DNA of 27,818 nt. It comes from a virus. The notes beneath the pieces are model-generated. The model was not told where the DNA came from, ran no database searches, and worked only from the letters and a program-made list of their open reading frames with translations. Of this stretch, positions 1,484 through 24,442 are shown piece by piece (the stretch's first letter is position 1; every line of letters starts with the position of its first letter). The stretch is taken from the IMG/VR virus record IMGVR_UViG_3300010042_000199, positions 1-27,818 of that record, one strand, 5' to 3'. Made by a program: the position numbers and the translations under genes.

Positions 1484-1497
1484 ATGGGGACGCTTTC
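1484..1497 (-). promoter_or_regulatory. Recurring motif, copy 1 (heads gp10-tail unit)
   Basis: Minus-strand GAAAGCGTCCCCAT followed by AAAGAAG. Its 3' end is 14 nt from the start codon at 1469. It lies between cargo island 1 and the phage gene it serves. The 5' flank (GCTCGCA) partly keeps the extended TCGCG pattern. Confidence 0.8.
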
Positions 1498-1583
1498 TGC
1501 GAGCGGAACACGACCTACACAAACCCACAATGCGAGCAATGGTCTTGTCCGGAATGAGAATGCAGGGGTGTAAGCGACCCACG

Positions 1584-1613
1584 TTGAATGAAAATCCATC
1601 CCACACCTAGAGT
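1584..1613 (+). promoter_or_regulatory. Possible vegetative promoter for cargo island 1
   Basis: TTGAAT (1584-1589) and TAGAGT (1608-1613) with an 18-nt spacer resemble a housekeeping -35/-10 pair, four of six matches each. It lies 42 nt before the ATG at 1656 in an AT-rich leader. No other candidate is visible in 1498-1655, and chance occurrence is quite possible. Confidence 0.3.
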
Positions 1614-1655
1614 CCGATCAGCATTTAGAAAGTGCCAAAAACAGGGACTCCCCCA

Positions 1656-2918
1656 ATGGATCAAAAATCGAAGGGCGCATGGATTATTCATCACAGCCAG
1701 AAGCTAGAAGGCTCTCAATACGAGCCCACCTACGGCAACCTACTGCAAGCCGGAAAGGCGGGCATTCTTCTATCAGCCCTCGCCAGATCAGACGAAAGTA
1801 CACTCTCGGCCGATGACGTCAGTGCGCATGCAACAGCGCTTCGCATCAACCCCCTAGAGCTGCCAACAATCATAACACATCTCACAAAAACGAAACTCAT
1901 CGACACCAGTGAAGGAGGGAGCGTTCGAGTTCTAGGGGTTGCCCAAAGCACGGTCCTCATTCATACGGCAAGCCTCTTCCAGCAGATGGAGCCACACTCA
2001 GAAGAAGAGGCAATAATAGAATTCGCAGAACAAACGTCCAATTCCCCCATCATTGAAACGGAAGCCTCAGAATACCTCGGCGACAATTTCAGCCTATCAA
2101 AAGACGAAGTGAAAGAGCTCTTCAACGATACTCAGCACTATGGATTCACCGACACGGAGCAGGTCGACAGTTCCAACAGAATTTACTTCAACGGAAATCT
2201 ATTCCGCAAAAACGAAGTAGACAAAATCAGCCGTGCACTCTCAGCGCTAAACCAAGCCGATCAGCTAAAGGTCACCAGTCTCAATGAACTCCTTAAAAAG
2301 CGAGGTTGTCTACCGGAAGATGATGTAACCACCATCTTAGGCCAAGACCTATTCGAGCGACTACACGGCGTAGGCCTCTTCGACGTGGGGGTAGTCACCA
2401 ATTCCGAAGGGGAAGCGAGATTCATTACAAGACCAGCGGCATTTGGAAAATTCGGAGACCCCTTTGCTGATGATGCACTAGATCTCGCCAAAGCATTCGT
2501 CGCATGCCTCACATATGGAATGACAAGAAGAAATGCCGCACAAGGACGGATCTCCAGTCTCAAACACCTAATGAAACACTTAGTGGAGGGCAGAACCATT
2601 GGCCCAGCCACGGCCATTGGCGAAGACTACAAGATTCTTGAACTAAAAGGCGTCGTTCAGATTACCCCAGGCCCCTCCAACAGATTTTACATGAAGCTAT
2701 TAAAGAAGGACATCGGAGAACTGGCCCTTCAGGTTCTCACAGAAGGAGAAACCAGCGATCAAGCGCTACCAAATTTCCCAGGCTCAGCAGCCTCGAACTA
2801 TCAGCGCCCAGAGCAGCAACGGGTCTTCAGTAGACAGCGAATCAGGAACAAGCCGCTCAACAAAAAATCGCAAACAAACGTCCTCATGGCCCTCAGGACT
2901 GGCGGCGTCTTTCGATGA
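1656..2918 (+). CDS. Winged-helix-like protein of island 1, unknown function
   Basis: A 420-residue soluble protein. The ATG at 1656 is preferred over the upstream GTG at 1632 because AGGGA lies 9 nt before it. I do not recognise the family. Residues about 25-90 look like a winged helix (LLQAGKAGILLSALA, then a recognition-like helix and LIDTSEGGSVRVLG). Helix-strand blocks of similar style recur near residues 125-190 and 215-270, so it may be a chain of winged-helix domains. No enzyme motif, membrane segment or signal peptide is seen. The stop overlaps the ATG of the next gene by 4 nt (ATGA), so the pair is translated together. Codons are much richer in A and T than in the phage genes on either side, which suggests separate acquisition. 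A likely role is the sensor, specificity or antitoxin partner of the nuclease downstream. Confidence 0.72.
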   Translation: MDQKSKGAWIIHHSQKLEGSQYEPTYGNLLQAGKAGILLSALARSDESTLSADDVSAHATALRINPLELPTIITHLTKTKLIDTSEGGSVRVLGVAQSTVLIHTASLFQQMEPHSEEEAIIEFAEQTSNSPIIETEASEYLGDNFSLSKDEVKELFNDTQHYGFTDTEQVDSSNRIYFNGNLFRKNEVDKISRALSALNQADQLKVTSLNELLKKRGCLPEDDVTTILGQDLFERLHGVGLFDVGVVTNSEGEARFITRPAAFGKFGDPFADDALDLAKAFVACLTYGMTRRNAAQGRISSLKHLMKHLVEGRTIGPATAIGEDYKILELKGVVQITPGPSNRFYMKLLKKDIGELALQVLTEGETSDQALPNFPGSAASNYQRPEQQRVFSRQRIRNKPLNKKSQTNVLMALRTGGVFR

Positions 2919-3982
2919 CACAACTCGATAAGGGCGGACAAGCCGAGGAGCTCCTACGGGAGTATTTTTTATCACTAGGATACTACGTCGTTCGTTCGCT
3001 CTGCATCAAGATCGACAGGGCAGACATCACGGACGTCGACATCTGGCTCTATATGAGATCATCCACAGTCTCACGCGAGCGCATTAACGTTGACGCCAAA
3101 AACAAGACCAGCCCCAAGGCTCTCGAACGAATTTTCTGGGCCAAAGGTGTTCAAAGCATCCTCAATCTTGACGGCTGCATGGTCGCAACAACCGACAAGC
3201 GCGAACTCGTCAAAGAATTCGGAAGGCAGCACAACGTAACCGTTCTCGATGGGGAGTTTCTGCTAAGACTGGCGAAGGCGGGCCTCCCATGCAAAGAAAG
3301 GCTTTCCGAGGAGGAGTTTCTCGCCAACTGCTTTGGCGAACCGGATTCAAACATGCTCTCCAAGCAGGACAAAGACGACTTCCAGCGAGCACGAAGTCTT
3401 CTCCTGACGAAATTAAACTTCGACGGCTGCAACTCATGGCTCCATCTTTGCGGACTAGCCATTGACAAGGCACTAAAAATCCCAGCACTTAGGCCCGCCG
3501 CCACCAGAGTCCTATACGCATCCATATCAATGCTACTCATAGGAATCGACTATAGCGCACGCCTAATTCAACTCGAAGACAGAGACACCACAAGGAAGCG
3601 AATCACCGAGTCACTCAGATACGGCGAGAACGGATTCTCCAGAATGCAGGACACCGTCAACACTGCGATCAAGATGATGGAGGCATACACGCCAGAGGTT
3701 CGCACCAAGGGCACCCAACTCTCACTAGGGATCCGCCAAGACATGGAGAGCATTCCAGCCGAGATACTTGGCGAGATGTTCAGCAAGATCGACATCGCGC
3801 GAGAACTTTTCTCGACTGCCAAGTCATTTGAATCACTCGCATATCGCCGGACCCTGGTTTCACCGTCACAACTCGACCCACAACTCTCGGCAATCCTTTT
3901 CGGACTCCTTGATTTCTTTAAAATTGATCGACTCGGCTTCCTTGATCAGATCTCAAGCGGCATCACGGCGACCTCTCTGTAG
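2915..3982 (+). CDS. PD-(D/E)XK nuclease of island 1
   Basis: A 355-residue protein whose first 90 residues fit a restriction-endonuclease fold: an N-terminal helix with E11/E12 (GGQAEELLREYF), a strand with D40 and D42 (ITDVDIW), then D60-x-K62 on the next strand (INVDAKNK) and a helix ending WAKGV. This is the order of Mrr/RecB-type nucleases, and a metal-dependent DNA or RNA cleavage activity is expected. Residues 90-355 are helical with no motif I recognise; a mildly hydrophobic stretch near 195-205 is too weak to call a membrane segment. It overlaps the preceding winged-helix-like gene by 4 nt and ends 19 nt from the convergent tail terminator gene. The nuclease call is fairly firm; a defence role is inference from its place as prophage cargo. 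Confidence 0.75.
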   Translation: MTQLDKGGQAEELLREYFLSLGYYVVRSLCIKIDRADITDVDIWLYMRSSTVSRERINVDAKNKTSPKALERIFWAKGVQSILNLDGCMVATTDKRELVKEFGRQHNVTVLDGEFLLRLAKAGLPCKERLSEEEFLANCFGEPDSNMLSKQDKDDFQRARSLLLTKLNFDGCNSWLHLCGLAIDKALKIPALRPAATRVLYASISMLLIGIDYSARLIQLEDRDTTRKRITESLRYGENGFSRMQDTVNTAIKMMEAYTPEVRTKGTQLSLGIRQDMESIPAEILGEMFSKIDIARELFSTAKSFESLAYRRTLVSPSQLDPQLSAILFGLLDFFKIDRLGFLDQISSGITATSL

Positions 3983-4001
3983 GTCTAACGACGACCATAA
4001 A

Positions 4002-4438
4002 TCACTCCCAAACACGAAAGCCTTCCGCATAGGCAATCATTAGATTCAGCACCCACCGATGCCTGTCCGCTCCGTCGGAACCCAAGTATTCAGGGGCGCT
4101 CTCTTCGGCGCGTACGCCGGCGCTCGGCAGGTGGGGCGTCTGGTGGAGTGCCTCCAAGACGGCGAGCGCGAGTGACTGCCCTCCTTGGAAGTCCTCGCGC
4201 GCCGAGCGGATGCGTACCTGACACCCCGGGACAGGTACGCCGCCCTTCCCAGTCCCAGGTACGGCAAGGGCCCTGCACCGCCCGTCACCACCAACGCCAC
4301 GGCCCTATCCGGCACGTCGCCATCCACCTCGGGCATGGGAGACGTGAACAGGTTGGCACCCGGGGCAGGCGGCCGGGCCAACCCGAGGCCCACCGCTTCC
4401 AGCACCGCCGCCAGCTCCGCAGCAACGTCGCGACTCAC
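4002..4438 (-). pseudogene. Tail terminator-like protein, reading frame broken
   Basis: The N-terminal part reads normally from the GTG at 4438, which overlaps the previous stop as GTGA and has GGAAGG 7 nt upstream, as far as YLGLGRAAYLSRGV (codon about 73). The zero frame then runs into arginine- and serine-rich sequence and stops at 4046. The -1 frame continues sensibly as QVRIRSAREDFQGG, then LALAVLEALHQTP and finally DRHRWVLNLMIAYAEG, stopping at 4002. Together they make a 145-residue protein with the pattern of siphophage tail terminators, which cap the tail tube for head joining. One extra base in the GGGG run at 4227..4224 would restore the frame. It may be a true mutation, a sequencing error in the homopolymer, or an unusual frameshift; no canonical slippery heptamer is present. 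Confidence 0.68.
4212..4240. repeat. Perfect 9-bp inverted repeat at the frame break
   Basis: GCGTACCTG (4212-4220) and CAGGTACGC (4232-4240) are perfect reverse complements around an 11-nt spacer that holds the CCCCGGG run. It lies exactly where the tail terminator changes frame, so it may have promoted slippage or be part of a recoding structure. Confidence 0.72.
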
Positions 4439-5423: not shown

Positions 5424-5426
5424 GGT

Positions 5427-7001: not shown

Positions 7002-7660
7002 CTCATCTCCTTGAAGTGGTGCAAGAGGGCCTCGGCCGTGTGCTTGGCCAAGGCGTTGACGTCGGGAGCTGGAGGGAGCGCGGCCTTTCTCCGGTCGCGT
7101 TCATCGAGGGCGGCGACCACGGCCTTCGCCACATCCTGAATGAAGGAGGCGCGCTCATCGGCCAGTTCCTTCACCCGGACTGCGCGCTGGTTGCCCGGAA
7201 TCGTGACGACGGAGATTTCGAGAAGCTCTTGCTGCTCGCAGTCGAATCCGCCGCGCTCGTTCTCGTGGTAGCGGTGCATGAGGTAGCGCACCGAGACGGC
7301 ATTCAGGATGCCGCGCGCCACCTTGCTCTCTACCTTCCGCGCGAAGTCGTCTTCCTGGTCGAACTCAATGTCCACCAGGAGGGCATCACCCTGGACGTAG
7401 GCGCGCCCCTTGCCGATGGGCAGGACGTCCTTGCGTCCCGTACCGAAGAGGCCGCCGGAGCCGTCGTCATGGTTGTAGAGGACGACGGGATTGGCGTTGA
7501 AGGCGTTCAGCATCCAGCCCTGGACGCTCAGCCTGTCGTTGTAGCGGTCGAAGTCGCCGTCGTTGGCGCGGAAGGTGTGGAGCCTCGGCGCGCCCTCGGC
7601 AGGCTCAGGGGTGTCCTTCTGGACTGTGAAGAGGCGGGCTCTGGAGAGAGGTACAGGCAT
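6998..7660 (-). CDS. HK97-type prohead protease
   Basis: A 220-residue serine protease that processes capsid and itself during head maturation. The ATG at 7660 follows GAGAGGTGA. Catalytic candidates are H64 in LYNHD and S123 in NAVSVRY, followed by the family signature ELLEISVV and IPGNQRA. The C-terminal 50 residues are helical and charged, as in proteases whose tail acts as scaffold or delta domain. It is the first phage gene after cargo island 2 and is preceded 12 nt upstream by motif copy 2, so the capsid genes may have their own transcription start here. It overlaps the capsid gene by 4 nt. Confidence 0.88.
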   Translation of the reverse strand: MPVPLSRARLFTVQKDTPEPAEGAPRLHTFRANDGDFDRYNDRLSVQGWMLNAFNANPVVLYNHDDGSGGLFGTGRKDVLPIGKGRAYVQGDALLVDIEFDQEDDFARKVESKVARGILNAVSVRYLMHRYHENERGGFDCEQQELLEISVVTIPGNQRAVRVKELADERASFIQDVAKAVVAALDERDRRKAALPPAPDVNALAKHTAEALLHHFKEMR

Positions 7661-7672
7661 TCACCTCTCTTT

Positions 7673-7686
7673 ATGGGGACGCTTTC
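7673..7686 (-). promoter_or_regulatory. Recurring motif, copy 2 (heads protease-capsid unit)
   Basis: Minus-strand GAAAGCGTCCCCAT followed by AAAGAGAGG. It ends 12 nt before the protease ATG at 7660. It sits between cargo island 2 and the resumed late operon. The 5' flank (GCCCCCA) has lost the TCGCG extension. Confidence 0.8.
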
Positions 7687-7791
7687 TGGGGGCGGCCTCA
7701 GCCACAAGCTGACTGGGCCGAACAGGAGATCAAAAGCCAGAGTCAATACAGACCCCACCCTCAAGTACCACCACGTAAGGAACGGTAGCAA

Positions 7792-7807
7792 TTGGCACGA
7801 CATTGGG
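7792..7807 (+). promoter_or_regulatory. Possible sigma-54 (-24/-12) promoter for island 2
   Basis: TTGGCACG-ACAT-TGGG matches the -24 half of the sigma-54 consensus perfectly, with the right spacing, but the -12 half has GG where GC is usual. It ends 29 nt before the ATG at 7837. Sigma-54 promoters are common in myxobacteria. No upstream activator site was identified. Confidence 0.35.
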
Positions 7808-7836
7808 TTACAGTGGCCCTAACACTGGGGGAATCA

Positions 7837-8649
7837 ATGAGGGCTCTACTTGCACTGCTCGTCATACTTCTTGTTCCATCCGTTGCACTAGCGGGAGGAA
7901 AAGGCGGCGGGAAAAGCAACCGCAGCAGCGGCGATGTCTCTGTTCGCGGTCATGTCCGCTCAGACGGCACCTATGTTGCCCCCCACTATCGGACGAGACC
8001 CGATAGCAGTTTTTCCAACAACTGGAGCACAGTTGGAAACACAAATCCATATACAGGGAAAGAAGGAACAAAGACCTATCCATCATCTGGGTATTCTTAT
8101 CGTCCCTCTCAAGGTTCTCCCAGTTCATACAACTCCCGAAACTCGCGCACTACGACAGCAAGCCCCCCGGGCGCAACATCGGCTAGTCGTCCAGCTACGT
8201 CCTACTACTCCGAAGGCACTGCTACTCACCGACCCGATGCTGATGCTCATTATTCAGACTCACTCTGCGAGAGTGTCGCCGCGCGCGTTCGCAACTATGG
8301 ATACAGCGCTGACTGCTCCAAGCAGAGCTTCCTCACCCTGAGTGACTGGGAGTCGCGCATCCAGCAAGCCCAGAAACTCCGCGCCTTGGGCTATGAGGTA
8401 GACTGGCGTCAGCACGAATTCCTCACGATGAGTGACTGGGAGTCGCGCATCCAGCAAGCCCAAAAACTCCGCGCTTTGGGCTATGAGGTAGACTGGCGTC
8501 AGCACGAATTTCTCAAGATGAGCGATTGGGAGTCCCGCATCCAACAGGCTGAACGGCTCCACGCGTTGGGCTATGATGTTGATTGGAAGAAACACTCCTG
8601 GCTCCAACTCTATGAAATGGAGCAAACAGGTCGCCGGGATTCGTACTGA
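7837..8649 (+). CDS. Secreted protein with 30-residue tandem repeats (island 2)
   Basis: A 270-residue protein from the ATG at 7837, with GGGGGAA upstream. Residues 1-19 form a Sec signal peptide (MRALLALLVILLVPSVALA) with an ALA|GG cleavage site and no lipobox. The mature N-terminus is Gly/Ser-rich, then RGHVRSDGTYVAPHYRT and a WSTVGNTNPYTGK segment, a pattern I know from many small secreted proteobacterial proteins of unknown role. After a Ser/Thr/Pro/Tyr-rich linker come four units ending GYxVDW/GYSADC, the last three each 30 residues (SDWESRIQQAQKLRALGYEV...). Unit one carries two cysteines. Base composition is lower in GC than the surrounding phage genes. It opposes the late operon. Export suggests a change to the lysogen's envelope or surroundings, but the function is unknown. 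Confidence 0.85.
   Translation: MRALLALLVILLVPSVALAGGKGGGKSNRSSGDVSVRGHVRSDGTYVAPHYRTRPDSSFSNNWSTVGNTNPYTGKEGTKTYPSSGYSYRPSQGSPSSYNSRNSRTTTASPPGATSASRPATSYYSEGTATHRPDADAHYSDSLCESVAARVRNYGYSADCSKQSFLTLSDWESRIQQAQKLRALGYEVDWRQHEFLTMSDWESRIQQAQKLRALGYEVDWRQHEFLKMSDWESRIQQAERLHALGYDVDWKKHSWLQLYEMEQTGRRDSY
8341..8610 (+). repeat. Three 90-bp tandem repeat units
   Basis: Units at 8341-8430, 8431-8520 and 8521-8610. The first two differ at four positions, three of them synonymous, so this duplication is recent or homogenised. The third is more diverged. A degenerate fourth unit lies just upstream, at about 8251-8340. Confidence 0.93.
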
Positions 8650-8707
8650 CGCCATCATTTCTCACACCAAACAAGAGCACCCCAACCCAAGCGGAGCGAA
8701 CATCCCA

Positions 8708-9004
8708 ATGAGCGCCTCAACCCCCAACATCACAATCATAACAGGCACCATAAACACTGGACCCGCAGAGCAAGCATCTGGCGGCGACATTACCATCCAG
8801 ATTCGACAAGACCAGATCGACAGCAGCCTCCTTCAGGATGAGAGTGACCTCGTCGTAACCCGCATTGACGGCGCGCCATTCTACGAAACAGCACCCGAAG
8901 GCCACTACACTTGCTTGGTCGCGGGCGGGGTAGTCTTCGAAATCATATCAATCAAAGAACACAACGGCTTTCTCCACGTAAAGATTCGCCCCACGGAACG
9001 TTAG
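8708..9004 (+). CDS. Small protein of island 2, unknown
   Basis: A 98-residue protein from the ATG at 8708, with GGAGCGA upstream; an in-frame extension back to 8573 would overlap the previous gene and is not favoured. The sequence is acidic to neutral with probable beta strands (NITIITGTIN, GGDITIQIRQDQ, YTCLVAGGVVFEIISI, FLHVKIRPTE) and no signal peptide. I recognise no family. It follows the secreted repeat protein by 58 nt and shares its AT-richer composition, so the two probably form one transcript. It ends 80 nt from the convergent portal gene. That 80-nt spacer shows no clear terminator. Confidence 0.62.
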   Translation: MSASTPNITIITGTINTGPAEQASGGDITIQIRQDQIDSSLLQDESDLVVTRIDGAPFYETAPEGHYTCLVAGGVVFEIISIKEHNGFLHVKIRPTER

Positions 9005-9084
9005 TTCTCTGGGCAGACTCCTTCGCCACTTCCAACAGACATCCCAGGAAGGCAACAAGGATTACGAGTCTCGATTTGCCATCA

Positions 9085-10365
9085 TCATCGAGACTTCTGC
9101 TGAATCTGGCCGGGCAATGGGAGTGGGTATCCCTGACGGTTCAGGTCAGGCCGGAGCCCCGCCAGCTCTCGCCATTCGTCGTAGCTGAATGCCTCCGGCA
9201 TGGTGCCCATGACGCGGAGCTGGTGCTCGCGGTCTGCCGGCACGGGGCTGTCGTAGTCGAGGATGGCCCCTTCATCACCCAGGAGCGGCATCAGCCGCAT
9301 CTGGTACTCGGTGCGCAGGAACTCCATGCGCGGAAGCGTCGCCTGCTCAGCAAGGTTCTCCCGTGCCGCGAAGGCCGTGGCTTTGTTGGAGCTGGAGATG
9401 TCCCCGACGATTTCAGGCGGTACCCTGAACGTCATGCGGACGAAGTCCATTAGGAAACGACGCAGCTCCACCAGCTGCATGTCCTTGAAGCTCGTGTCGA
9501 GGCGGGCAAACGTCACCTTCCCGCTGGTGATGAGGAGCTTCCCTGCCTTGTCCGGCCCCTGGTGCTCGCGCGCCAGAGATTCCTTGAACGCCTTCGCGCC
9601 CGCGCTGTTCGCGTCGGACAGGCCCTCAATCGAGGCGATGGCCGGCGGCAGCATGTTGTTCCAGAAGGACGTCTTGAGGAACCGCGCCACGTACTCGTCG
9701 GTGTCCAGCTCGTCTCCCAGCGCGTAGGCAGGACCGATGCCGCGCCCTAGAGGGTCCTCCGGATCCAAGCTGCGCAGGTGCAACACGTCGCTGGCCGGAA
9801 TCTCCCGCGACACCTTGCCCACCGTCACCGTGTACGTGCGTTGCTCGCGCGGCACGTCCAGCGCGGGCAACCGCGTGACGGTGCTCGGCGGCACCGGCCA
9901 GAAGCCCACCGGCACACCGCCCACGCGCTCCAGCACCAGGAACGCCTCGCCAACCAGGTCCAGGTACACCTGAACGAGCTTCGTCACGGAGCGTCCGGTG
10001 AGATGGTCGTTCGGGTCCGAGAGCAGCTTGAGGACGGGATGGTCCGGAACCTCCTGGGCCTCGCCCGCTTCCAGCATCGCTTTCAGCCGTCCGGCACGGA
10101 CCTCGCGCGTAGCGCTTCGCAGCGCGTAGTCCTTCACGGGCTGCCCGTCCTTCTGGACGCGCCGATAGACGCGCCACTGCACGCCCGCCACCGAGTCGGC
10201 CACCACGTCCACACACGCGCGGAGCCACGGCATTTCCCGGTACGCGGCGAGGAGCTGCGCAGTCCCTCGACGCGGCGGCGCCTGCTGCCAGCGCGCCAGC
10301 TCCAGCCCTGTCCCCTTGCGCGGCTCGCGACTCACCGCCGACTTCATCCGGTCCCAGAAGCCCAT
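9085..10365 (-). CDS. Portal protein (HK97/lambda-type)
   Basis: A 426-residue protein. The ATG at 10365 is chosen because GAGGGTGG lies just upstream, and it starts with the typical MGFWDRMKSAV; an upstream extension to 10422 overlaps the terminase gene. It forms the dodecameric ring through which DNA enters the head. Typical segments are PWLRACVDVVADSVAGVQW (N-terminal wing), VYLDLVGEAFLVLER, GFWPVPPSTVTRL, DVLHLRSLDPEDPLGRG, and the C-terminal helix region LRRFLMDFVRMTFRVPPEIVGD. Directly downstream in the phage direction the operon is interrupted by cargo island 2; normally the protease follows at once. Confidence 0.9.
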   Translation of the reverse strand: MGFWDRMKSAVSREPRKGTGLELARWQQAPPRRGTAQLLAAYREMPWLRACVDVVADSVAGVQWRVYRRVQKDGQPVKDYALRSATREVRAGRLKAMLEAGEAQEVPDHPVLKLLSDPNDHLTGRSVTKLVQVYLDLVGEAFLVLERVGGVPVGFWPVPPSTVTRLPALDVPREQRTYTVTVGKVSREIPASDVLHLRSLDPEDPLGRGIGPAYALGDELDTDEYVARFLKTSFWNNMLPPAIASIEGLSDANSAGAKAFKESLAREHQGPDKAGKLLITSGKVTFARLDTSFKDMQLVELRRFLMDFVRMTFRVPPEIVGDISSSNKATAFAARENLAEQATLPRMEFLRTEYQMRLMPLLGDEGAILDYDSPVPADREHQLRVMGTMPEAFSYDEWRELAGLRPDLNRQGYPLPLPGQIQQKSR

Positions 10366-12261: not shown

Positions 12262-12275
12262 ATGGGGACGCTTTC
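12262..12275 (-). promoter_or_regulatory. Recurring motif, copy 3 (heads terminase operon)
   Basis: Minus-strand GAAAGCGTCCCCAT followed by TGAAGGGG. It ends 12 nt from the terS ATG. The 5' flank ACCAGCCACG keeps the CCA element of the extended motif. Confidence 0.82.
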
Positions 12276-12468
12276 CGTGGCTGGTCCGGAGTTCTCTTCA
12301 AACTTTCATTCAAGGGGCCGAACAAAACCCGAGGAGCCCCTGACGTTTTCTTGAAGTTTTTCAAGCGTGGGGGTCCGCCGAGCAAGGCAGGAACGGGCCC
12401 ACCGTCCAAAATCCGGACCCGGGGGGCTCGCTAAGTCCAGCTACAGGTTTCGCATGTAGGACAAGAAC
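12276..12468. other. Non-coding spacer with two inverted repeats
   Basis: No gene is seen here. CTTGAA-GTTT-TTCAAG (12350-12365) is a perfect hairpin, and AGGGGC (12313-12318) pairs with GCCCCT (12336-12341). They lie between the zinc-ribbon gene's end and motif copy 3. They could be a terminator for the sigma unit or an operator, but neither has a clear U-tract. Confidence 0.5.
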
Positions 12469-12777
12469 TCACCGGGCGACCTGGGCAAGCCTCGCGTTGC
12501 ACGCCATGGAGTCCGCGCAGGACACCCGCCAGACGCGCGAGAAGGCCCCGTCCTCGCACGTTTCGGTGACGTCAAGCCTTCCCCTCCCCTTGCGAACCAG
12601 GAAGCCACAGAGCGAGCACCGGGCCGCGTACCTGTTGCGACGCAGCTCCGGTGCCCTGTCCGCACACGCGAGGTGACGCGGGCCTGTCGCCAGTTCGTAG
12701 GCAATGCGCTCACCCTCCAGGATGGGCGCGCCACATGCCGCGCACGGCCCGCCCTTCCTGGCGACGAGCACCGGCAC
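12469..12777 (-). CDS. Small zinc-ribbon protein downstream of sigma
   Basis: A 102-residue basic protein. The GTG at 12777 shares a base with the sigma factor stop (TAGTG), so translation is coupled. It carries CxxC at CAACG (residues 12-15), a later HLAC, a second CxxC in ARCSLCGF (near residues 54-57) and further cysteines near the C-terminus (VSCADSMACN), suggesting one or two zinc ribbons. Small zinc proteins next to phage transcription factors may bind RNA polymerase or DNA, but no family is recognised, and a DNA-processing role is equally possible. The stop is at 12469. Confidence 0.72.
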   Translation of the reverse strand: MPVLVARKGGPCAACGAPILEGERIAYELATGPRHLACADRAPELRRNRYAARCSLCGFLVRKGRGRLDVTETCEDGAFSRVWRVSCADSMACNARLAQVAR

Positions 12778-13532
12778 TAGAGGAGCCTCCCACTCAAACG
12801 TGCGCGCAGCTCGTCATGCGCCTGGGCCAACAGCTCGTCGACACGCCGACGAGACATGCCCCACCGCGTAGCCACGGCACGCGTCCCCTCACGTGGCATG
12901 CCGATGCCGTAGATGCGGGAGAGCAGCTCCTCCTGTTGGGGCTCCAGTTCCGCGAGAGCACGTTGCACCAGGACGGACCGCTCATGCGCGATGAGGACTG
13001 ACACCAAGCTGTCCGCCTCGCGTGCGCGCCTCTCGTCATTCTTCCGCGTCGCGGACCTGGAGAGTTCCTGCTCCGGCGCGTCTTTGCTGACGAGGTCCAC
13101 GGCCTGCTGCCACTTGCCCTTGCCGCGCTGGGCCCGGTCCGGCAGGCACACGTCCGCTCGGTGCAACCGGATTTGGTCCATGATGGCGCGGTGGGCCCGC
13201 CACTTCACCCACGATGTGAAGCTCTGCTCCCCGCGCTTCGAGCGCTGATACGTATCAACCGCCTTCACAGCCTCCATCGCGGCGACTTGAACGAGGTCCT
13301 CCCGCGACAGAGAGCCTCGCGACTTGTCGAAATCGCACGCGAGCTTGCGCAGCTCAGGCATCAGCACTTCCATCAACTGGCTGGAGTACTCGCGCTCGGA
13401 CTGGGCGTCCCCTGACGCTCGGCACCCGCGAATCGCGAGGACCAACATGTCAACCAGCTCTCGGGACACTCGCGCTCCCCCACGTCCCGACTTCACACCA
13501 TCCTGCTTCACTGGCCCGTTACCGCACTGCAT
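12777..13532 (-). CDS. Phage-encoded sigma-70-family factor
   Basis: A 251-residue protein. The ATG at 13532 is chosen because AGGGGG lies 5 nt upstream; the GTG at 13571 lacks a ribosome-binding site. The region 2-like part reads EDLVQVAAMEAVKAVDTY, then FTSWVKWRAHRAIMDQIR, the signature of core-binding and -10 recognition helices. Region 4 at the C-terminus reads LAELEPQQEELLSRIYGIG, then ATRWGMSRRRVDELLAQA, a helix-turn-helix for -35 contact. Region 1.1 is absent, and the linker is charged and short of structure. It would redirect host RNA polymerase to phage promoters. Its own transcription unit begins with motif copy 4, which makes self-activation plausible. Which promoters it reads is inference. 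Confidence 0.87.
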   Translation of the reverse strand: MQCGNGPVKQDGVKSGRGGARVSRELVDMLVLAIRGCRASGDAQSEREYSSQLMEVLMPELRKLACDFDKSRGSLSREDLVQVAAMEAVKAVDTYQRSKRGEQSFTSWVKWRAHRAIMDQIRLHRADVCLPDRAQRGKGKWQQAVDLVSKDAPEQELSRSATRKNDERRAREADSLVSVLIAHERSVLVQRALAELEPQQEELLSRIYGIGMPREGTRAVATRWGMSRRRVDELLAQAHDELRARLSGRLL

Positions 13533-13801: not shown

Positions 13802-13815
13802 ATGGGGACACGTTC
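13802..13815 (-). promoter_or_regulatory. Recurring motif, copy 4 (heads sigma unit)
   Basis: Minus-strand GAACGTGTCCCCAT followed by AAAAGAAAGGGA. It is the only copy with C for A at the fourth base. The 5' flank CCACTCGCG is a full match to the extended motif. It ends 13 nt from an ATG at 13788 and 269 nt from the sigma start. Confidence 0.8.
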
Positions 13816-14048
13816 CGCGAGTGGCTCAAGCCGCGTGCTGATTCCTCGGCGGCAGAGGTCACCAACAAGGAGTCACTGTCACTAACTCTTCTCTATAAAG
13901 GGTGTAGAAAAGTTGAGGTATCAGAGGACATGACAAAGACACACTGGAGTAGTTCTAGAGGATAGATGGAGCGGAGCTAGTGACGGGGACACCCTTCAAT
14001 CGGGGTATGCCGAGACGCGGGAAATGAGCCTTGGCTGGGCCAGTCGCG
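13816..14048. promoter_or_regulatory. Divergent control region between late and replication units
   Basis: A 233-bp gene-free segment between the two outward-pointing motif copies 4 and 5, more AT-rich in its middle (13880-13980) than the rest of the phage. It includes GTCACTGTCACTAACTC near 13873 and TCTATAAAGG near 13892, which could be promoter or operator parts, but I cannot define a convincing -35/-10 pair. It is the natural place for the lysogenic switch, yet no repressor gene adjoins it. Confidence 0.5.
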
Positions 14049-14062
14049 GAAAGTGTCCCCAT
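14049..14062 (+). promoter_or_regulatory. Recurring motif, copy 5 (heads replication operon)
   Basis: GAAAGTGTCCCCAT with the full extended 5' flank CCAGTCGCG and 3' AAGTAAG. It ends 10 nt before the GTG start at 14073. Confidence 0.82.
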
Positions 14063-16708: not shown

Positions 16709-16738
16709 ACGGAAACGCGTTGGAGTGAACCACTCGCG

Positions 16739-16752
16739 GAAAGCGTCCCCAT
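16739..16752 (+). promoter_or_regulatory. Recurring motif, copy 6 (heads nuclease-helicase unit)
   Basis: GAAAGCGTCCCCAT with the full 5' flank CCACTCGCG and 3' TGAAGAGAG. It ends 10 nt before the GTG at 16763. It lies inside the replication block although no cargo adjoins it. Confidence 0.83.
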
Positions 16753-18237: not shown

Positions 18238-20106
18238 ATGCGGCTACTTGAACGACTGGGCGTCACTCCCACGCCCTCCAGCCCCCCGCCCGAGGAGCGC
18301 GCTCCTGTCTACGGGCGCTCTCCCGTGGGCTACTCGGCGGACCTCGGCCGCATCCTCGCCTTGCCTCGGCGCAACCTCGCCACCGCCTACACAGCGGCGG
18401 ACATCGAGGCGCTGGAAGCCCAGCTACGCGCGCCACCCAGCCCGTGTAGCTGCGCGAGCATGTCCCCGCCGCGCCCTTGCCCCACGCGGTTGAGGAGGGT
18501 GCAGGCACAGGCGCTTCTGGAAGCACCGCGCGTCGGCGGGCTCCTCGCGCCCATCGGCACGGGCCACGGCAAGGAGCTGACAACCTTCCTCATGCCCATG
18601 GTGATGCCGGGATGCCGTGTGGCAGTCCTCTTCATCCCCGCCAACCTCCTGCCCCAGTTCCAAGTCGAGTGGAGCTACTACGGCGCGCACTGGCGGCTGC
18701 CCAACCTCGCGGGCGGCAGGTGGTTCCGCGTGGGCCTGCCGGTGCTCCACGTCGTCTCGTACAACAAGCTCTCCAGTCAGGAAGCGACGAACCTCCTGGA
18801 GCGCATCCGCCCGGACCTCGTCATTCTCAACGAGGCTCACAACCTCAAGGACCCGAAGTCTACGCGCACGGGCCGCTTCCTCCGCTACTTCGAGGAGCAC
18901 CCACGGACACGCCTCGTGGCGCTCTCCGGCACCTTCGCGTCCAAGAGCATCAAGGACTACGCGCACCTGTCGCGCCTGGCGCTCGGTGAGGGCTCGCCTT
19001 TGCCACTCGCGCACCACGTCGTCGAGGAGTGGGGAACGGCCCTGGACCCGGGCAAGGTGGTGGCCCCTCCTGGCGCGTTGGAGCAACTGTGCGAGCCGGG
19101 AGAGCACGTGCGCGAGGGATTCCAGCGCCGCCGCAACTCGACGCGCGGCGTGGTGGCCACGGAAGAGAGCGCCCTGGACAAGCCGCTCATCATCCGAGAG
19201 CGGAAGCTGGGGGCCGTGCCCGCGCAGATCCTCGCCTTCATCGAGCTAGCGCACGCGGGCGAGCGTCCGGACGGGGAGCAGTTCCAGGAGCAACTCCAGT
19301 CCGTGGCCTGCGCGCGGCAGCTGTCCGCCGGTTTCTTCCACCGCTGGCGCTACCCAAGGGGCGAACCGCCGGAGCTGATTGAGAAGTGGTTCGCGCGGCG
19401 CAAGGAATGGAACAAGGAAGTCTGGGAGGAACTCAAGGGCGAGCGCCGCGAGCACCTGGACTCACCGGGGCTGCTCACCAAGGCAGCTATCCGCGCGCAC
19501 ATGACGCCGCCCTACGAGGGCGACAAGCCCGTCTGGCACGCGGGGACGTGGTCGGAGTGGGCGGAGATTCATGCCGCCGTGCAGCCCGAACCTCAAGTGG
19601 TTAGGGTGTCGGACTTTCTCGTGAGGGACGCAGCGGAGTGGGCACGCTCGCGGGTGGGGATCGTCTGGGTCGAGTACCCGGAGCTGGGCGAACGCATCGC
19701 CAAGGCGGCGGGCGTGCCGTTCTACGGCGGGGGCAAGGCCGCATCCGAAGCCATCCTCCGGGAGACAGGGAAGCGATCCGTAGTGGCGAGCATCAAGGCG
19801 CACGCCACAGGGAAGAACCTTCAGCAGTTCTCACGTAACCTCGTGGTGACACCACCCTCGGATGGGGCGATGTGGGAGCAGCTCCTCGCACGGACGCACC
19901 GCCCCGGGCAGCAGGCGCCATGCGTTGAGCTGGAGGTGTGCCTGCATACCCAGAACTACGTCGAGGCATTCGCGCTGGCGCACGAGAGGGCGAGGTTCGT
20001 TCAACAGACCGACGGACAGCTTCAGAAGATACTCCATGGAGAGAACTTTCCGCCTCTTGCAGATTCCTCTAATCTCCTGCGTCGAGGACTCCAGCAGAGT
20101 CCCTAA
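18238..20106 (+). CDS. SNF2-like superfamily 2 helicase
   Basis: A 622-residue protein from the ATG at 18238, with GAAGGGG upstream. The helicase core shows Walker A GTGHGKE at residues 107-113, a DEAH-box variant NEAH at 198-201, motif III LSGTF, and motif VI with RTHRPGQ beginning at R552, typical of SNF2 and related DNA translocases. Asn replaces the first Asp of the box, which may weaken hydrolysis or be family-typical. The N-terminal 80 residues are Pro-rich. It would move along duplex DNA to help replication, recombination or stripping of bound proteins. It ends where the AT-richer island 3 begins. Confidence 0.87.
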   Translation: MRLLERLGVTPTPSSPPPEERAPVYGRSPVGYSADLGRILALPRRNLATAYTAADIEALEAQLRAPPSPCSCASMSPPRPCPTRLRRVQAQALLEAPRVGGLLAPIGTGHGKELTTFLMPMVMPGCRVAVLFIPANLLPQFQVEWSYYGAHWRLPNLAGGRWFRVGLPVLHVVSYNKLSSQEATNLLERIRPDLVILNEAHNLKDPKSTRTGRFLRYFEEHPRTRLVALSGTFASKSIKDYAHLSRLALGEGSPLPLAHHVVEEWGTALDPGKVVAPPGALEQLCEPGEHVREGFQRRRNSTRGVVATEESALDKPLIIRERKLGAVPAQILAFIELAHAGERPDGEQFQEQLQSVACARQLSAGFFHRWRYPRGEPPELIEKWFARRKEWNKEVWEELKGERREHLDSPGLLTKAAIRAHMTPPYEGDKPVWHAGTWSEWAEIHAAVQPEPQVVRVSDFLVRDAAEWARSRVGIVWVEYPELGERIAKAAGVPFYGGGKAASEAILRETGKRSVVASIKAHATGKNLQQFSRNLVVTPPSDGAMWEQLLARTHRPGQQAPCVELEVCLHTQNYVEAFALAHERARFVQQTDGQLQKILHGENFPPLADSSNLLRRGLQQSP

Positions 20107-20162
20107 GCCCATTTGCGCTTTGTACGGTGACACTGCACATCCATACTACGGGACAAAATCAA

Positions 20163-21167
20163 ATGCCTCCAGCACTAGAAGAACTCGAAGAACAATACAC
20201 GTCAACACTCCCCCTGGCGGAGAGGTTCTCCAAGAAACTCACGGAAGCCATCACACACACACTCGAATCAAGCAAAATCCCACTCAGCATCCCAATTCAA
20301 TATAGAATAAAGCAATGGCCCTCCATAGCTGAAAAACTTGATCGAAAGCCACGAGAGCTCGGGCACATAACAGAGCTAACCGATCTTATTGGGCTCAGGC
20401 TAATCCTGCAATTTCACGGAGACATCAACAGAGTCACCAAGCTCATCGAGAGAAAGCTCCATGTCATTGAAAAGCAAGACAAAGCCAAGGCCCTCGACGA
20501 GAACCAGTTTGGGTACCTCTCCATGCACTTATTGGTCAAAATGCCAGAGACATGGATTGAAGTCCCAACCTATGAGGGTCTTGGCAATCTAGTTGCCGAA
20601 GTACAGATACGAACAACGGCCCAACACATCTGGGCAGCAGCATCCCATACGCTTCAGTACAAAAACGTGACATCAATTCCAGCACAGTTGCGGAGATCAC
20701 TCCATCGAGTTTCCGCCCTACTCGAAACCGTCGATCTTGAGTTAGAACGTATCGTGGAGGCCCGCGAAATCTACAGAGACCAAGCACCTATTGAGGCAAA
20801 CCACGGACCTCTCGATGTAGATATTCTCGAGAAGACCTTGGACTCAACATGGCCTAAAATAAACAAGCTCGGCGTTGAAGACTACGACGACCTCATCACT
20901 GAGCTGCTCCACTTCAAGATCAATACCATTGAGCTAGCGAAAAACCTCATCCTGAAACACAGAAAAGAAACCCTCGCCTACGACAAGCAAGCAGCTACAC
21001 GGGCCCTAAAGGACAATCCCGAAATGGCCGCCAGATTTCACCAAACCCTCATCCAGGGTGTCTTTTTCTCCCATGCAGGACTAACTCGACACGCATTGTC
21101 TCTAGAGTTTGGCGACGCGCACGAGAATTACATAAAGAACATTTTCATCACCAAGCCCAGCGAATAA
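20163..21167 (+). CDS. RelA/SpoT-domain alarmone synthetase (island 3)
   Basis: A 334-residue protein from the ATG at 20163, with GGGA upstream; the GTG at 20127 has no ribosome-binding site. Residues 40-170 carry every part of a (p)ppGpp synthetase domain: R48-x-K50, S54 and K58, D74 in TDLIGLRL with R79, GYLSMH with Y118 and H122, E146, Q148 and R150 in AEVQIRT, then H155, H162 and Y166-K167. There is no hydrolase HD domain and no TGS or ACT domain, so it is a small synthetase like toxic SAS or CapRel types. The C-terminal 120 residues are helical and unrecognised, a possible sensing or neutralising part. One base separates it from the GIY-YIG gene. It is AT-richer than flanking phage genes. 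Confidence 0.87.
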   Translation: MPPALEELEEQYTSTLPLAERFSKKLTEAITHTLESSKIPLSIPIQYRIKQWPSIAEKLDRKPRELGHITELTDLIGLRLILQFHGDINRVTKLIERKLHVIEKQDKAKALDENQFGYLSMHLLVKMPETWIEVPTYEGLGNLVAEVQIRTTAQHIWAAASHTLQYKNVTSIPAQLRRSLHRVSALLETVDLELERIVEAREIYRDQAPIEANHGPLDVDILEKTLDSTWPKINKLGVEDYDDLITELLHFKINTIELAKNLILKHRKETLAYDKQAATRALKDNPEMAARFHQTLIQGVFFSHAGLTRHALSLEFGDAHENYIKNIFITKPSE

Positions 21168-21168
21168 C

Positions 21169-21669
21169 ATGCTCATTCAGTCCTATGGTTTGTTTTGGCA
21201 TGCAGATCAAGTGAACTGGTTTCCAGGCAAGGGACATTCGTTCCGCATGCTAGGACGTCGTTACTGGAACTTGCCCCACCTCCGCGTGACCGACTTTAGA
21301 CAGCAGAGCGGAATCTACATTCTCTATGGAAATCATGGACCGCATTATGTCGGCCTTGCGCGCAAACGTGGCATTGGCGTGCGCTTAAGAGAACATTTAG
21401 GCGACGAACACAAAGGCCATTGGGATCGCTTCAGTTGGTTTGGGTTTCGAGCTGTCCTGAAATCAACTAGCAATCTAGGACTCCATGGCCTCAAGAAGTT
21501 GGCAACCATTGGGAAAGGCCCCCCGAACGACCTCATTGCGGACACTGAGGCTCTACTAATCAAGGCGATGGGCTTACGAAACAAGGCTGACATGAAGTTT
21601 AAGAAAGCACTTTGCTGGGAACAGGTTCGATCCGACGAAATCAACCAAATCTTGCAAAAAATCCTTTAG
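21169..21669 (+). CDS. GIY-YIG nuclease (island 3)
   Basis: A 166-residue protein whose ATG follows the synthetase stop by one base. The nuclease core reads SGIYILYG (GIY at 48-50), HYVGLARK (YVG at 60-62), VRLREHLG with R72/R74, and ADTEALLIKA with the metal-binding E127. Residues 1-45 are an extra N-terminal part with aromatic residues (YGLFWHADQVNW). GIY-YIG enzymes cut DNA or RNA in homing, restriction and repair. It has no intron or homing context here. Tight coupling to an alarmone synthetase suggests a two-part conflict or defence module. The stop at 21669 is 57 nt before motif copy 7. Confidence 0.85.
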   Translation: MLIQSYGLFWHADQVNWFPGKGHSFRMLGRRYWNLPHLRVTDFRQQSGIYILYGNHGPHYVGLARKRGIGVRLREHLGDEHKGHWDRFSWFGFRAVLKSTSNLGLHGLKKLATIGKGPPNDLIADTEALLIKAMGLRNKADMKFKKALCWEQVRSDEINQILQKIL

Positions 21670-21726
21670 ATTCAAGAACGCTGACCTTCTTTCAGTTACG
21701 CCAAGGAGGGCGTTGGGCCACTCTCA

Positions 21727-21740
21727 GAAAGCGTCCCCAT
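21727..21740 (+). promoter_or_regulatory. Recurring motif, copy 7 (restarts replication operon after island 3)
   Basis: GAAAGCGTCCCCAT with 5' CCACTCTCA and 3' AAAGGAAGG. It is the only copy out of register: the next start codon (21797) is 56 nt away, although a ribosome-binding-like AAAGGAAGG follows at once. Confidence 0.8.
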
Positions 21741-21796
21741 AAAGGAAGGTAAGGACGTCCTCTCGACGTCCCGCCACCTGACTAGGAACACGGGAC

Positions 21797-22327
21797 ATGA
21801 GCAACGCAGCACTCGCACGAATCGCCACCTCTCAGGCCGCCCTCGGCGCGCAGTACCTCAAGGCAGGCCGCTACCGCCTGGAGGTGCAGTCCATCCGCAC
21901 CAAAGACGGCTTCAAGGGCCTGTCCGCCATCGCTGAAGTGAAGGTGGTAACTTCGGAGCGGACCCAGCCCAACACCGAGCCCACGCGGCCCGGCCTCGTC
22001 ACCAGCTACGTGGAGAACCTCTCCGACGCGAAGAAGAACGGAGGCGGGCGCTTCAAGGCTTTCCTCATGGCCCTGGCTGGGGCCGAGGAGCACGAAGTCT
22101 CCCCAGACTTCATCGCCAAGTTCACCGAGGCGAAGCAGGCCGGCGCTTTCCTCTTGGTGGACTGCGACGTCTTCCCCAAGACGCTCCCGGAGAAGGACGG
22201 CAGGCCCGGCAAGGTCATCGAGGGCTACCGCTGGAGCAACGTGAGCCCCACGGACACGGAGCTGGCCGCCATCGAGTCCAAGCGCGCCGCCGCGAAGCTC
22301 CCGCCGCTCGCGGACGCCCTGGGCTGA
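21797..22327 (+). CDS. DUF669-like phage protein, possible single-strand DNA binder
   Basis: A 176-residue protein from the ATG at 21797. The N-terminal half has the look of phage DUF669-type proteins: YLKAGRYRLEVQSIRTKDG followed by LSAIAEVKVVTSE, a beta-strand pattern also found in OB-fold proteins. A helix (RFKAFLMALAGAE) and another strand pair (GAFLLVDCDVFPKT, GKVIEGYRWSNV) follow. It sits immediately before the DNA polymerase gene, where phages often carry a single-strand binding protein. The match is by pattern, not by a proven family, and no catalytic motif is seen. GC-rich codons mark the return to the phage core after island 3. Confidence 0.6.
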   Translation: MSNAALARIATSQAALGAQYLKAGRYRLEVQSIRTKDGFKGLSAIAEVKVVTSERTQPNTEPTRPGLVTSYVENLSDAKKNGGGRFKAFLMALAGAEEHEVSPDFIAKFTEAKQAGAFLLVDCDVFPKTLPEKDGRPGKVIEGYRWSNVSPTDTELAAIESKRAAAKLPPLADALG

Positions 22328-22405
22328 CGTCCCCTTCACCTCTGGACTTCTTGGCGTTCCATCTGGGGCGCCACGGCTGGCCCACGTCACGGGCCTTTCG
22401 GTGTT

Positions 22406-24418
22406 GTGGCCACCCTCTTTAGCTTCGACACCGAGACGTACCCGATTCAACCCGGACTCCTCGCGCCGCCGCTCGTCTGCGCTTCCATCGCCCTGGAGGC
22501 GGCTGGAAGCGAGCAGCTCCTTTCCGCCGCCCAGGCCCGTGCGTGGTTCCGCGATGCACTCCGCGAGCCGGACCTCGAACTGACGGGCGCCAATCTCCCG
22601 TACGACCTGGGCGTCATGTGCGCGGATGACCCGCGACTTGTGGACGCCGTCTTCGCTGCCGCCGAGGCAGGGCGATTCCATGACGTGGCCATCCGCGAGG
22701 CTCTTCTGGACATCGCCCGCGGACTCCACGGTGTGGACCCGGAGACGGGTCGCCCGCTCGGAGATGATGAGGGCGCACGCTACCCGCTGGCCCTCTTGGT
22801 GCGGCGGCACCTCGGCCTCGACATTTCCGCCGACAAGCACGCCCCCGACGCGTGGCGCCTGCGCTACGGCGAGTTGGACGGTGTGCCGCTGGAGAAGTGG
22901 CCCGAAGGCGCCGTGAAGTACCCGCTACGGGACGCGCGCTTCACGCTGGACGTCCACCTCTCGCAAGAGCGCGCCGCATCCAGCATCCCCAACGGCGGCA
23001 ACCTCCACGCCGAAGGGGACCAGGTCTGCGCCGCTCTCGCGCTCCACTTCGCTTCCATCTGGGGGCTTCGCACCGATGCCGGACGCGTCGAGGAGCTGCG
23101 CCGCCGCGTCGAGCAAGAGTGGAAGGCCAACCGCGCGCACTTCCAGGCCGCCGGCATCTTCCGCCCCAACGGCACCAAGGACTCCAAGCGCCTCGCCCAA
23201 CTCGTCACCGCCGCCTACAACGGCTCGCCTCCCGTCACCCCTCCCTCGACACGCTTCCCCGAGGGACAGGTGGCCACGGACCGGGACACCCTCCTCGACT
23301 CGGGCGACACGGTGCTGGAGGAGCTGGGCAAGGCCGGCAAGGTGGACAAGTACCGCTCCACATACCTGGGCAAGTTGGAGGCCGGCACCACCACGCCCCT
23401 CAACCCGCGCTTCAACGTGCTGGTGTCCACGACGCGCGTCTCCAGCGACTACCAGCAGCTTCCCCAGCGAGGAGGCGTGCGCGAGTGCCACGAGGCCCGC
23501 CCTGGCTTCGTCTTCTGCTCCGTGGACTACGGCGGCCTGGAGCTGCGCACCATGGCCCAGCGTGCCATCTGGGACGTGGGCTACTCGCGCATGGCCGAGG
23601 CGCTGCTGGCCAAGGAGGACGTCCACACCTCGGCGGCGGCCACCTTCCTTGGGGAGAGCTACGACGCCCTCCTGCCGCGCGTGAAGGCTAAGGAGGCGAC
23701 GGCCACGTCCTTCCGCTCCCTCGCCAAGATTTTCAACTTCGGCAAGGGCGGGGGCCTCGGGGCCGGCGGCATGGCGTACCACGCACGCGCCAAGGACGGC
23801 GTCCGGTTCTGCCTGATGGCGAAGGTGGCGGACACGTGCGGTGTGGAGCGCGTCCCCGTGCGCGTCCAAGGCAAGGTGAAGATGGTCTGCGCCGCGTGCG
23901 TCGAGGTGTCGCGCCGCTACGGCGACAGGTGGCTCGACGCGTGGCCCGAGCAACGCGTCCTCTTCGGCAGCGCCAGCGCGTACACGCGCAACGGCCAGCT
24001 CGTGGACGTCATGATTCCGGGCGCCAACATCCTCCGGGGCGGGTGTGGCTACACGCAGTGGCTCAACACGCCCTTCCAGGGGCTCGGTGCCGTGGGCGCG
24101 AAGCTGGCGACCTGGCGCGTGTCCCGAGAGATGTACGCGGACCGTCGCTCTCCCCTCTGGGGCTCACGCCTCGTCCTCATGGTGCACGACGAATTGGTTG
24201 CGGAACTGCGCGCGGACTGCCCCAACCGCCTCCATGACGCCGCCGAGCGCATGGCGGAACTCATGCGGCAGGCCATGCGCGAGGTGACGCCGGACCTCGC
24301 GGGGGCCATCGAAGCCGAGCCCGCCCTCTCGCGCGTGCTCTCGAAGGACGCGGCCACGGTGAGGGACGGCAAGGGGCGCCTACTGGTGTGGGAACCAGAC
24401 GCGAAGAAGGCCGCGTGA
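22406..24418 (+). CDS. Family A DNA polymerase with 3'-5' exonuclease
   Basis: A 670-residue replicative polymerase from the GTG at 22406, with only a weak ribosome-binding site. The exonuclease motifs are complete: FSFDTET (D8, E10), ANLPYDLG, and the YPLRDARFTLDV pattern near residue 175. Polymerase motif A is VDYGGLELR with D374, motif B RSLAKIFNFGKGG with K441, and motif C MVHDELVAEL with H594, D595 and E596. Between B and C is an insertion with four cysteines (CLMAKVADTCG and later VCAACVEV) that could bind zinc. The protein lacks the N-terminal 5' nuclease of Pol I, as T7-type phage polymerases do. Motif copy 8 follows its stop. Confidence 0.92.
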   Translation: MATLFSFDTETYPIQPGLLAPPLVCASIALEAAGSEQLLSAAQARAWFRDALREPDLELTGANLPYDLGVMCADDPRLVDAVFAAAEAGRFHDVAIREALLDIARGLHGVDPETGRPLGDDEGARYPLALLVRRHLGLDISADKHAPDAWRLRYGELDGVPLEKWPEGAVKYPLRDARFTLDVHLSQERAASSIPNGGNLHAEGDQVCAALALHFASIWGLRTDAGRVEELRRRVEQEWKANRAHFQAAGIFRPNGTKDSKRLAQLVTAAYNGSPPVTPPSTRFPEGQVATDRDTLLDSGDTVLEELGKAGKVDKYRSTYLGKLEAGTTTPLNPRFNVLVSTTRVSSDYQQLPQRGGVRECHEARPGFVFCSVDYGGLELRTMAQRAIWDVGYSRMAEALLAKEDVHTSAAATFLGESYDALLPRVKAKEATATSFRSLAKIFNFGKGGGLGAGGMAYHARAKDGVRFCLMAKVADTCGVERVPVRVQGKVKMVCAACVEVSRRYGDRWLDAWPEQRVLFGSASAYTRNGQLVDVMIPGANILRGGCGYTQWLNTPFQGLGAVGAKLATWRVSREMYADRRSPLWGSRLVLMVHDELVAELRADCPNRLHDAAERMAELMRQAMREVTPDLAGAIEAEPALSRVLSKDAATVRDGKGRLLVWEPDAKKAA

Positions 24419-24428
24419 ACCAGTCGCG

Positions 24429-24442
24429 GAAAGTGTCCCCAT
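24429..24442 (+). promoter_or_regulatory. Recurring motif, copy 8 (heads methylase-integrase unit)
   Basis: GAAAGTGTCCCCAT with the full 5' flank CCAGTCGCG and 3' CAGAAGTG. It ends 10 nt before the GTG at 24453 and 10 nt after the polymerase stop. It heads the coupled run of methylase, resolvase, excisionase and integrase. Confidence 0.83.

Follow-up and report, generated by a model that had tools for sequence, protein, structure and literature searches.

The virus record IMGVR_UViG_3300010042_000199 (IMG/VR), whose positions 1 to 27,818 form the 27,818-bp window analysed here, carries eight copies of an asymmetric motif placed ahead of operons, and this motif is probably the promoter class of the phage family's own sigma70-family factor, as far as sequence comparison can tell. 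We add a tentative proposal, held with slightly less belief than doubt: that the phages split into mutually exclusive sigma-promoter specificity groups, in which the 8-12 promoters of a genome are changed together, and that satellite-like elements lacking a sigma gene stack promoters of different groups ahead of the replication operon so that either helper type can wake them.

A 27-bp unit ahead of first genes

An earlier note on this DNA described eight 14-bp motif copies, and all eight are present at the coordinates and on the strands it gave, each co-directional with transcription. The distance of 10-14 nt to a start codon is true for seven of the eight (the site at 21727 lies 56 nt away), and the extended flank was correctly assigned to five copies (13802, 14049, 16739, 21727, and 24429). 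The 14-mer is real but too small as a unit, since the flank belongs to the motif at every site: CC[A/G] stands at a fixed 9-nt offset, usually with TGRR before it, giving a full unit of ~27 bp, TGRRCCAsTCGCGGAAAGYGTCCCCAT. By chance, 0.0009 exact 14-mer matches are expected in the window, versus the eight seen; with up to three mismatches there are 20 matches, where 100 shuffles averaged 7.5 and never exceeded 14, and the reversed 14-mer pattern has no match in the window. From the final T of the motif to the start codon, the minus-strand sites are spaced by 14 nt (1484), 12 nt (7673), 12 nt (12262), and 13 nt (13802), and the plus-strand sites by 10 nt (14049, 16739, and 24429) and 56 nt (21727). 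The start codon 13 nt past the 13802 motif is that of a small leader open reading frame (ORF) ahead of the sigma gene. The units and one gene of corrected frame are as follows.

1484..1506, minus strand: motif unit CCGCTCGCAGAAAGCGTCCCCAT, before a 137-aa tail-completion/neck-like gene (1056-1469); relatives' homology stops here
7673..7695, minus strand: motif unit CCGCCCCCAGAAAGCGTCCCCAT, before the head maturation protease gene (6998-7660); relatives' homology stops here
12262..12284, minus strand: motif unit CCAGCCACGGAAAGCGTCCCCAT, before the terminase small subunit gene (11779-12249)
13802..13824, minus strand: motif unit CCACTCGCGGAACGTGTCCCCAT, before the leader ORF and the sigma gene
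14040..14062, plus strand: motif unit CCAGTCGCGGAAAGTGTCCCCAT, before the primase-helicase gene (14073-16445)
16730..16752, plus strand: motif unit CCACTCGCGGAAAGCGTCCCCAT, before the exonuclease gene (16763-18226)
21718..21740, plus strand: motif unit CCACTCTCAGAAAGCGTCCCCAT, 56 nt ahead of the 176-aa gene (21797-22327) that heads the DNA polymerase operon, and followed by a GGACGTC/GACGTCC hairpin
24420..24442, plus strand: motif unit CCAGTCGCGGAAAGTGTCCCCAT, before the DNA methyltransferase gene, then the RuvC-like, AlpA-like, and integrase genes
25832-26368: RuvC-like gene (correct frame)

The window is a fragment that encodes terminase, portal, protease, capsid, primase-helicase, exonuclease, DNA polymerase, methyltransferase, integrase, and a sigma factor, and from which the tail genes are mostly missing. 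Its complete relatives are prophages in Myxococcus chromosomes (M. eversor, M. llanfairpwllgwyngyll..., and M. qinghaiensis) and have a ninth site ~7 kb past the window's left end, before a lysis-like/kinase operon; no close relative was found in the phage collection searched. In several relatives the unit at 24420..24442 stands directly before the RuvC-like gene, and the methyltransferase is absent.

Among ~28 related prophages, the unit lies ahead of the first gene of each transcription unit, which bears out the claim that it precedes structural as well as replication operons and identifies it as a real signal of myxobacterial prophages. An alignment of 102 distinct sites from 15 prophages, covering both sigma groups that share the window's version of the motif (V1), gave the consensus YTGRRCCAsTCGCGGAAAGYGTCCCCAT followed by a purine-rich stretch. 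Because information in this logo is high from position -3 onward and near zero farther upstream in both sigma groups, the recognised element is confined to the ~27 bp and the start-codon region; the sequence upstream of several sites is unrelated between phages. In phages with V1 and with two other versions (V2 and V3), most first genes have a motif ahead of them (those of the lysis-like, tail-completion, protease, terS, sigma leader, primase, exonuclease, 176-aa, and RuvC-like operons); of the internal genes scored in the same phages (major capsid protein, portal, terL, helicase, pol, hta, and int), not one does. The distance from motif to gene is specific to the gene and nearly constant within a motif type, for example 12 nt for the V1 protease and terS genes and 56 nt for the V1 176-aa gene, and the start codons of the RuvC-like and 176-aa genes lie 55-56 nt downstream of conserved sites. 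The per-gene placement table scored the V2 phage G088 as V1, leaving its row empty, and the V2 sites of G088 were found in separate scans. This phage has a reversed integrase gene with a V2 site ~47 nt ahead of it, and the idea that the site at the right prophage end is antisense to the integrase was dropped because the G088 site precedes the gene.

Random occurrence of the motif in the host genome, a concern raised in the earlier note, can be excluded: the 30 exact copies found across three complete Myxococcus genomes (35 Mb) all fall inside members of the prophage family, their remnants, or satellite-like elements. The longer pattern has matches in 16 of the 96 genomes of the family, nearly all inside such elements (reversed control, 0), and host genes are free of the motif in the three complete genomes and in the family and order scans (reversed-pattern control, 0).

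Other versions of the motif occupy equivalent places in related prophages: V2 in ~10 phages, V3 in two, and V4 in two. V2 is GAATCCGCACGCATTTA, with pattern matches in 30 of the 145 genomes of the order (reversed control, 0); the layout of G088 is that of V1 phages, and its sites approximate CCACTCsCrGAAnYCGCACGCATTTA. V3, GAAnTTGCCCCCATTGA, occurs in G036 and G042, and the looser V4, CCACAACATCTACA or a TA-rich end, in G012 (contig C124) and in the third G073 prophage. Throughout a genome, the sites change together in their downstream half and keep a constant upstream half, and a coordinated change on this scale is the mark of a single trans-acting reader. V1 sites stranded in V2 phages have altered last bases (CCCCAC, GTTCCCAT); those in G088 (L231:6835-6857) and G088c (L363:13047-13069) lie a few hundred bp upstream of a V2 site. 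The divergent sigma/primase region of V2 phages (e.g., L309:15904-16363) holds up to five tandem V2 sites, ~76-86 bp apart in each direction, many of them followed by ATG.

The phage sigma factor as candidate reader

Every complete phage encodes a sigma70-family gene behind its own copy of the motif, a position that makes a positive loop plausible. The ORF at 12777-13532 is a genuine sigma70-family protein: it matches profiles of RpoS/FliA/SigA across regions 2-4 (E 1e-8), and its predicted fold (mean pLDDT 80) has sigma chains as structural matches, with whole-model TM-scores that are low (~0.3), probably because two sigma domains are flexibly linked. The gene and its neighbours are as follows.

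12777..13532, minus strand: sigma70-family factor of 251 aa, the proposed motif reader (Pfam Sigma70_r2, E 3.9e-9; profile and fold matches)
12469..12777, minus strand: zn102, a 102-aa paired-cysteine (zinc-finger-like) protein and possible co-regulator, overlapping the sigma stop codon
13519..13788, minus strand: putatively coding 89-aa leader ORF, which begins 13 nt past the motif and runs 14 nt into the sigma gene

The leader ORF is conserved at 72-93% in most relatives of the same sigma group and at 51% in the most distant one. A family-level sigma profile is found in 22 of the 145 genomes, including 7/7 of those with at least five V2 sites, and the sigma is present in every genome with at least three V1 sites, with the exception of G083, which has its three copies in satellites. 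On a tree of 28 sigmas, motif type shows the minimum possible number of changes, which none of 200 shuffles matched. The sigma factors of the V4 phages G012f (L353/L354) and G073c (L355/L356) are ~68% identical to the V2 sigma. Two other kinds of promoter were ruled out: a T7-like one, as no single-subunit RNA polymerase was found among the phage genes scanned, and an extracytoplasmic-function type -35/-10 arrangement, for which the 12 bp from TGRRCC to YGTC are too short.

In the mechanism we propose, the phage sigma would join the host RNA polymerase and start transcription at each motif copy, so that the head, tail/lysis, and replication and recombination operons would be switched on together, along with the sigma operon itself. 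From the geometry, sigma region 4 would read the constant upstream half (TGRRCCA) as a -35-like element, and region 2 would read the variable downstream half, which ends in CATWWA, as a -10-like element. A GRRCCA-CATWWA spacing of 16-17 bp is possible, and 17 bp would put the start near position 33, which in most operons is the place of the start codon. Transcription would then begin on the start codon or a few bases from it, yielding leaderless or nearly leaderless mRNAs, and the purine- or G-rich stretch before the start codon may be discriminator DNA. Predicted Shine-Dalgarno strength after the motif is indistinguishable from that at other starts, and it was dropped as a test for leaderless mRNAs because it does not discriminate. 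For some operons, the ribosome site might be hidden in a hairpin of the read-through RNA, as it is for T4 gene e. A helper phage would activate, in trans, the satellite-like elements that carry the motif but lack a sigma gene.

The first codons of some operons pair with the purine- or G-rich stretch ahead of the start codon, as at the protease gene.

7645..7670, minus strand: hairpin AGAGAGG/CCTCTCT, which spans the protease gene's ribosome site; V2 and V3 relatives have a stem of different bases

The leader from the motif to the 176-aa gene (21741-21797) also holds a hairpin, GGACGTC/GACGTCC, which is GTCAGCG/CGCTGAC in V2 and is thus kept across types with different bases. A general RNA hairpin after every site was rejected, as hairpins occur at a subset only (mean z -0.8 for V1, -0.6 for V2, and -0.1 for the upstream control).

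Several observations weigh against a sigma-read promoter. A C-rich -10 element is unusual and does not resemble TATAAT, and the start implied by the geometry fits badly with Shine-Dalgarno-like sequences between the motif and the start codon. V4 is loose and irregular, and one spacing does not fit every V4 site. Sigma groups A and B are only ~40% identical, yet V1 is common to both. In the satellite-like loci of G020, G067, and G033, no motif was recognised ahead of the primase operon. Other core genes also track motif type, and because of this, covariation does not single out the sigma over zn102.

The earlier note had offered a promoter, a repressor site, or an RNA leader signal; it was right to offer a promoter read by a single trans-acting factor, and the other two options are less supported. 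In a variant of this reading, which we consider unlikely, the motif would be a promoter or activator site whose specificity is set by a different factor of the phage or the host, for instance zn102 working as an Ogr-type activator with a host sigma. Zn102 adjoins the sigma, is conserved in V1, V2, and V3 phages, and diverges less than the sigma between the two V1 sigma groups (61-94% versus ~40% identity), which fits the unchanged V1 motif. However, it goes undetected by search in some V2 phages (e.g., G012d and G073b), its fold search returned no significant match, so that a known DNA-binding fold was dropped, and a dedicated sigma, whose tree agrees with the motif types, requires no added assumption. 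It is quite improbable that a phage repressor uses the sites as operators or stoperators to silence the prophage: many asymmetric sites in one orientation recall the cluster A mycobacteriophages, and type-specific variants would look like immunity groups, but the sites keep a fixed distance to the first start codon of operons and are absent from internal genes, and no immunity repressor was recognised among the genes scanned. The phage does encode an AlpA-like helix-turn-helix protein.

An RNA-level leader signal for translation or RNA stability, like mycobacteriophage start-associated sequences, with promoters lying elsewhere, is highly improbable. The sites do adjoin the ribosome-binding region, and the 5' strand of a site pairs better with its own coding strand than with the strands of other sites in its genome (V1 z 4.5, V2 z 3.1), values inflated by related sequences and accompanied by many sites without pairing. 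Yet divergent operons 233 bp apart each need a promoter, and since nothing is conserved upstream of -3, no shared promoter lies upstream of the motif; in addition, the 176-aa and RuvC-like genes begin 55-56 nt downstream, and hairpins occur at some sites only. Finally, of the 155 points at which alignments of the window with 13 relatives end, 53 lie no more than 20 bp from a motif (2.4 expected; maximum of 8 in 2000 random trials), as would suit a motif serving mainly as a recombination linker for cassette exchange. Such a role is extremely improbable as the main one, because a shared promoter would by itself produce breakpoints at the sites, low-turnover sites (terS, sigma, and primase) are equally conserved, and orientation, fixed start spacing, and coordinated variants are left unexplained.

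Satellite-like elements and variable cassettes

A family of satellite-like elements of ~13-15 kb carries the motif, with 17 close loci, defined by primase, in 15 of the 145 genomes, three of them in G083. Leftward they encode two kinases, a DUF2381 protein, and others, and rightward a small gene, a 371-aa gene, a primase/ATPase, an AlpA-like protein, and an integrase. Integrase and primase are present and no terminase, portal, or sigma gene was found in these elements, as in satellites of the P4 or phage-inducible chromosomal island (PICI) type. The motif is carried by the elements of G083, G072, G076, G032, and G037, in whose whole genomes no family sigma was detected at E 1e-25. The G083 a, b, and c elements and that of G082 have a V2 site and then a V1 site, ~73 bp apart; that of G012 has V2, V2, and V1, in a genome that also holds V1, V2, and V4 phages. 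The elements of G072, G076, and G088 have two V2 sites, and that of G073 has a V1 site ending in CCCCAA. The elements may be induced by helper phages.

The cluster of two kinases, DUF2381, and further genes is common to the satellites and the phage left end (L177-L179, Mqi prophage). Elements in G069 (C11, L341) and G030 (C527, L342) encode an integrase, an AlpA-like protein, and a primase together with a capsid-protein homologue behind a V2 site; those in G016 (L346) and G047 (L349) encode an integrase, an AlpA-like protein, and likewise a capsid-protein homologue behind a V2 site. None of the four has a terminase or portal match, and they are possibly capsid-coding satellites.

Variable blocks in the window lie directly upstream of a site, except for the methyltransferase block, which lies directly downstream.

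1507..4041: variable lower-GC cassette 1, upstream of the motif at 1484
7696..9104: variable cassette 2, upstream of the motif at 7673, with three tandem 90-bp repeats
20038..21713: variable cassette with a RelA/SpoT-domain gene, upstream of a motif
24443..25833, plus strand: variable cassette (DNA methyltransferase), inserted directly downstream of a motif

The slot of cassette 1 is occupied in G002 (L129:1635-3939) by a PARIS defence pair (AriA E 2e-29, AriB E 1.5e-28), and another G002 cassette holds an HNH-effector-like gene. The three repeats of cassette 2 (8329-8598) are 96% and 69% alike. The low-GC stretch at 20163-21669 encodes the RelA/SpoT-domain protein (PADLOC candidate PDC-S33) and then a 166-aa protein, a possible toxin or defence pair.

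Comparison with known systems

If the proposed reading is true, the family offers sigma factors and promoters that are naturally matched in a series, with four motif versions and 28 sigmas in the comparison, and these would allow mapping of how sigma specificity changes while every promoter in a genome has to keep up. The helper choice of satellites would be readable from their promoter arrays, and the sites would explain where this phage family accepts variable cassettes, several of them with defence genes. It would also name the promoters of a prophage group that many Myxococcus-type genomes carry and that the searched phage collection lacks.

Our literature search found no paper on the motif, and literature and database searches together returned no earlier account of it or of the phage family, in keeping with the earlier note's statement that it is not described. 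The closest regulons are those of the lytic phages phiEco32 and 7-11, whose sigma factors recognise a 9-bp -10-type motif, TAATGTATA (PMC4331800). Both there and here, a phage sigma distantly related to sigma-A is paired with a phage-specific short motif before several operons, in a similar layout among relatives (PMC4331800); the family described here differs in its integrase-bearing (temperate) phages, its C-rich bipartite ~27-bp unit, its coordinated versions, and its satellite-like copies. T4 late promoters, read with gp55, have an AT-rich 8-bp element, TATAAATA. In the leaders of T4 genes e, soc, and 49, late RNA initiated at the promoter lacks the 5' strand of an inhibitory hairpin, and read-through RNA hides the ribosome site (PMC3014915). 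The position of the motif directly upstream of the ribosome site resembles the gene e arrangement, and the same hairpin logic may apply to some operons here; unlike in T4, the hairpins, which are predicted ones, occur at a subset of sites.

The likeness to mycobacteriophage stoperators and start-associated sequences (SAS) drawn in the earlier note holds for placement and fails for the defining features. Stoperators are likewise many asymmetric sites spread genome-wide, with variant specificity between related phages (PMC9283540, PMC6550527), but they are repressor sites that stop transcription, whereas the sites here head operons at a fixed per-gene spacing. SAS and extended SAS (ESAS) always adjoin start codons, about half of them with a 17-bp inverted repeat upstream, and are thought to act in translation (PMC3203893). 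The motif shares with SAS the form of short repeats fixed just before start codons (PMC3203893), and differs in sequence, in having no conserved upstream inverted repeat, and in two conserved sites that lie 55-56 nt from the start codon.

In the P4-P2 satellite system, a satellite has promoters read by a helper-encoded factor, the late promoters being activated by Ogr. The elements described here would resemble P4-like satellites (PMC8628076) in having promoters read by the helper's transcription factor; unlike in P4-P2, the proposed factor is a sigma, and single satellite-like elements stack promoters of two helper types. Phage sigma regulons as such are already known, and what is new is the motif itself, its several coordinated versions, and the elements that stack more than one of them.

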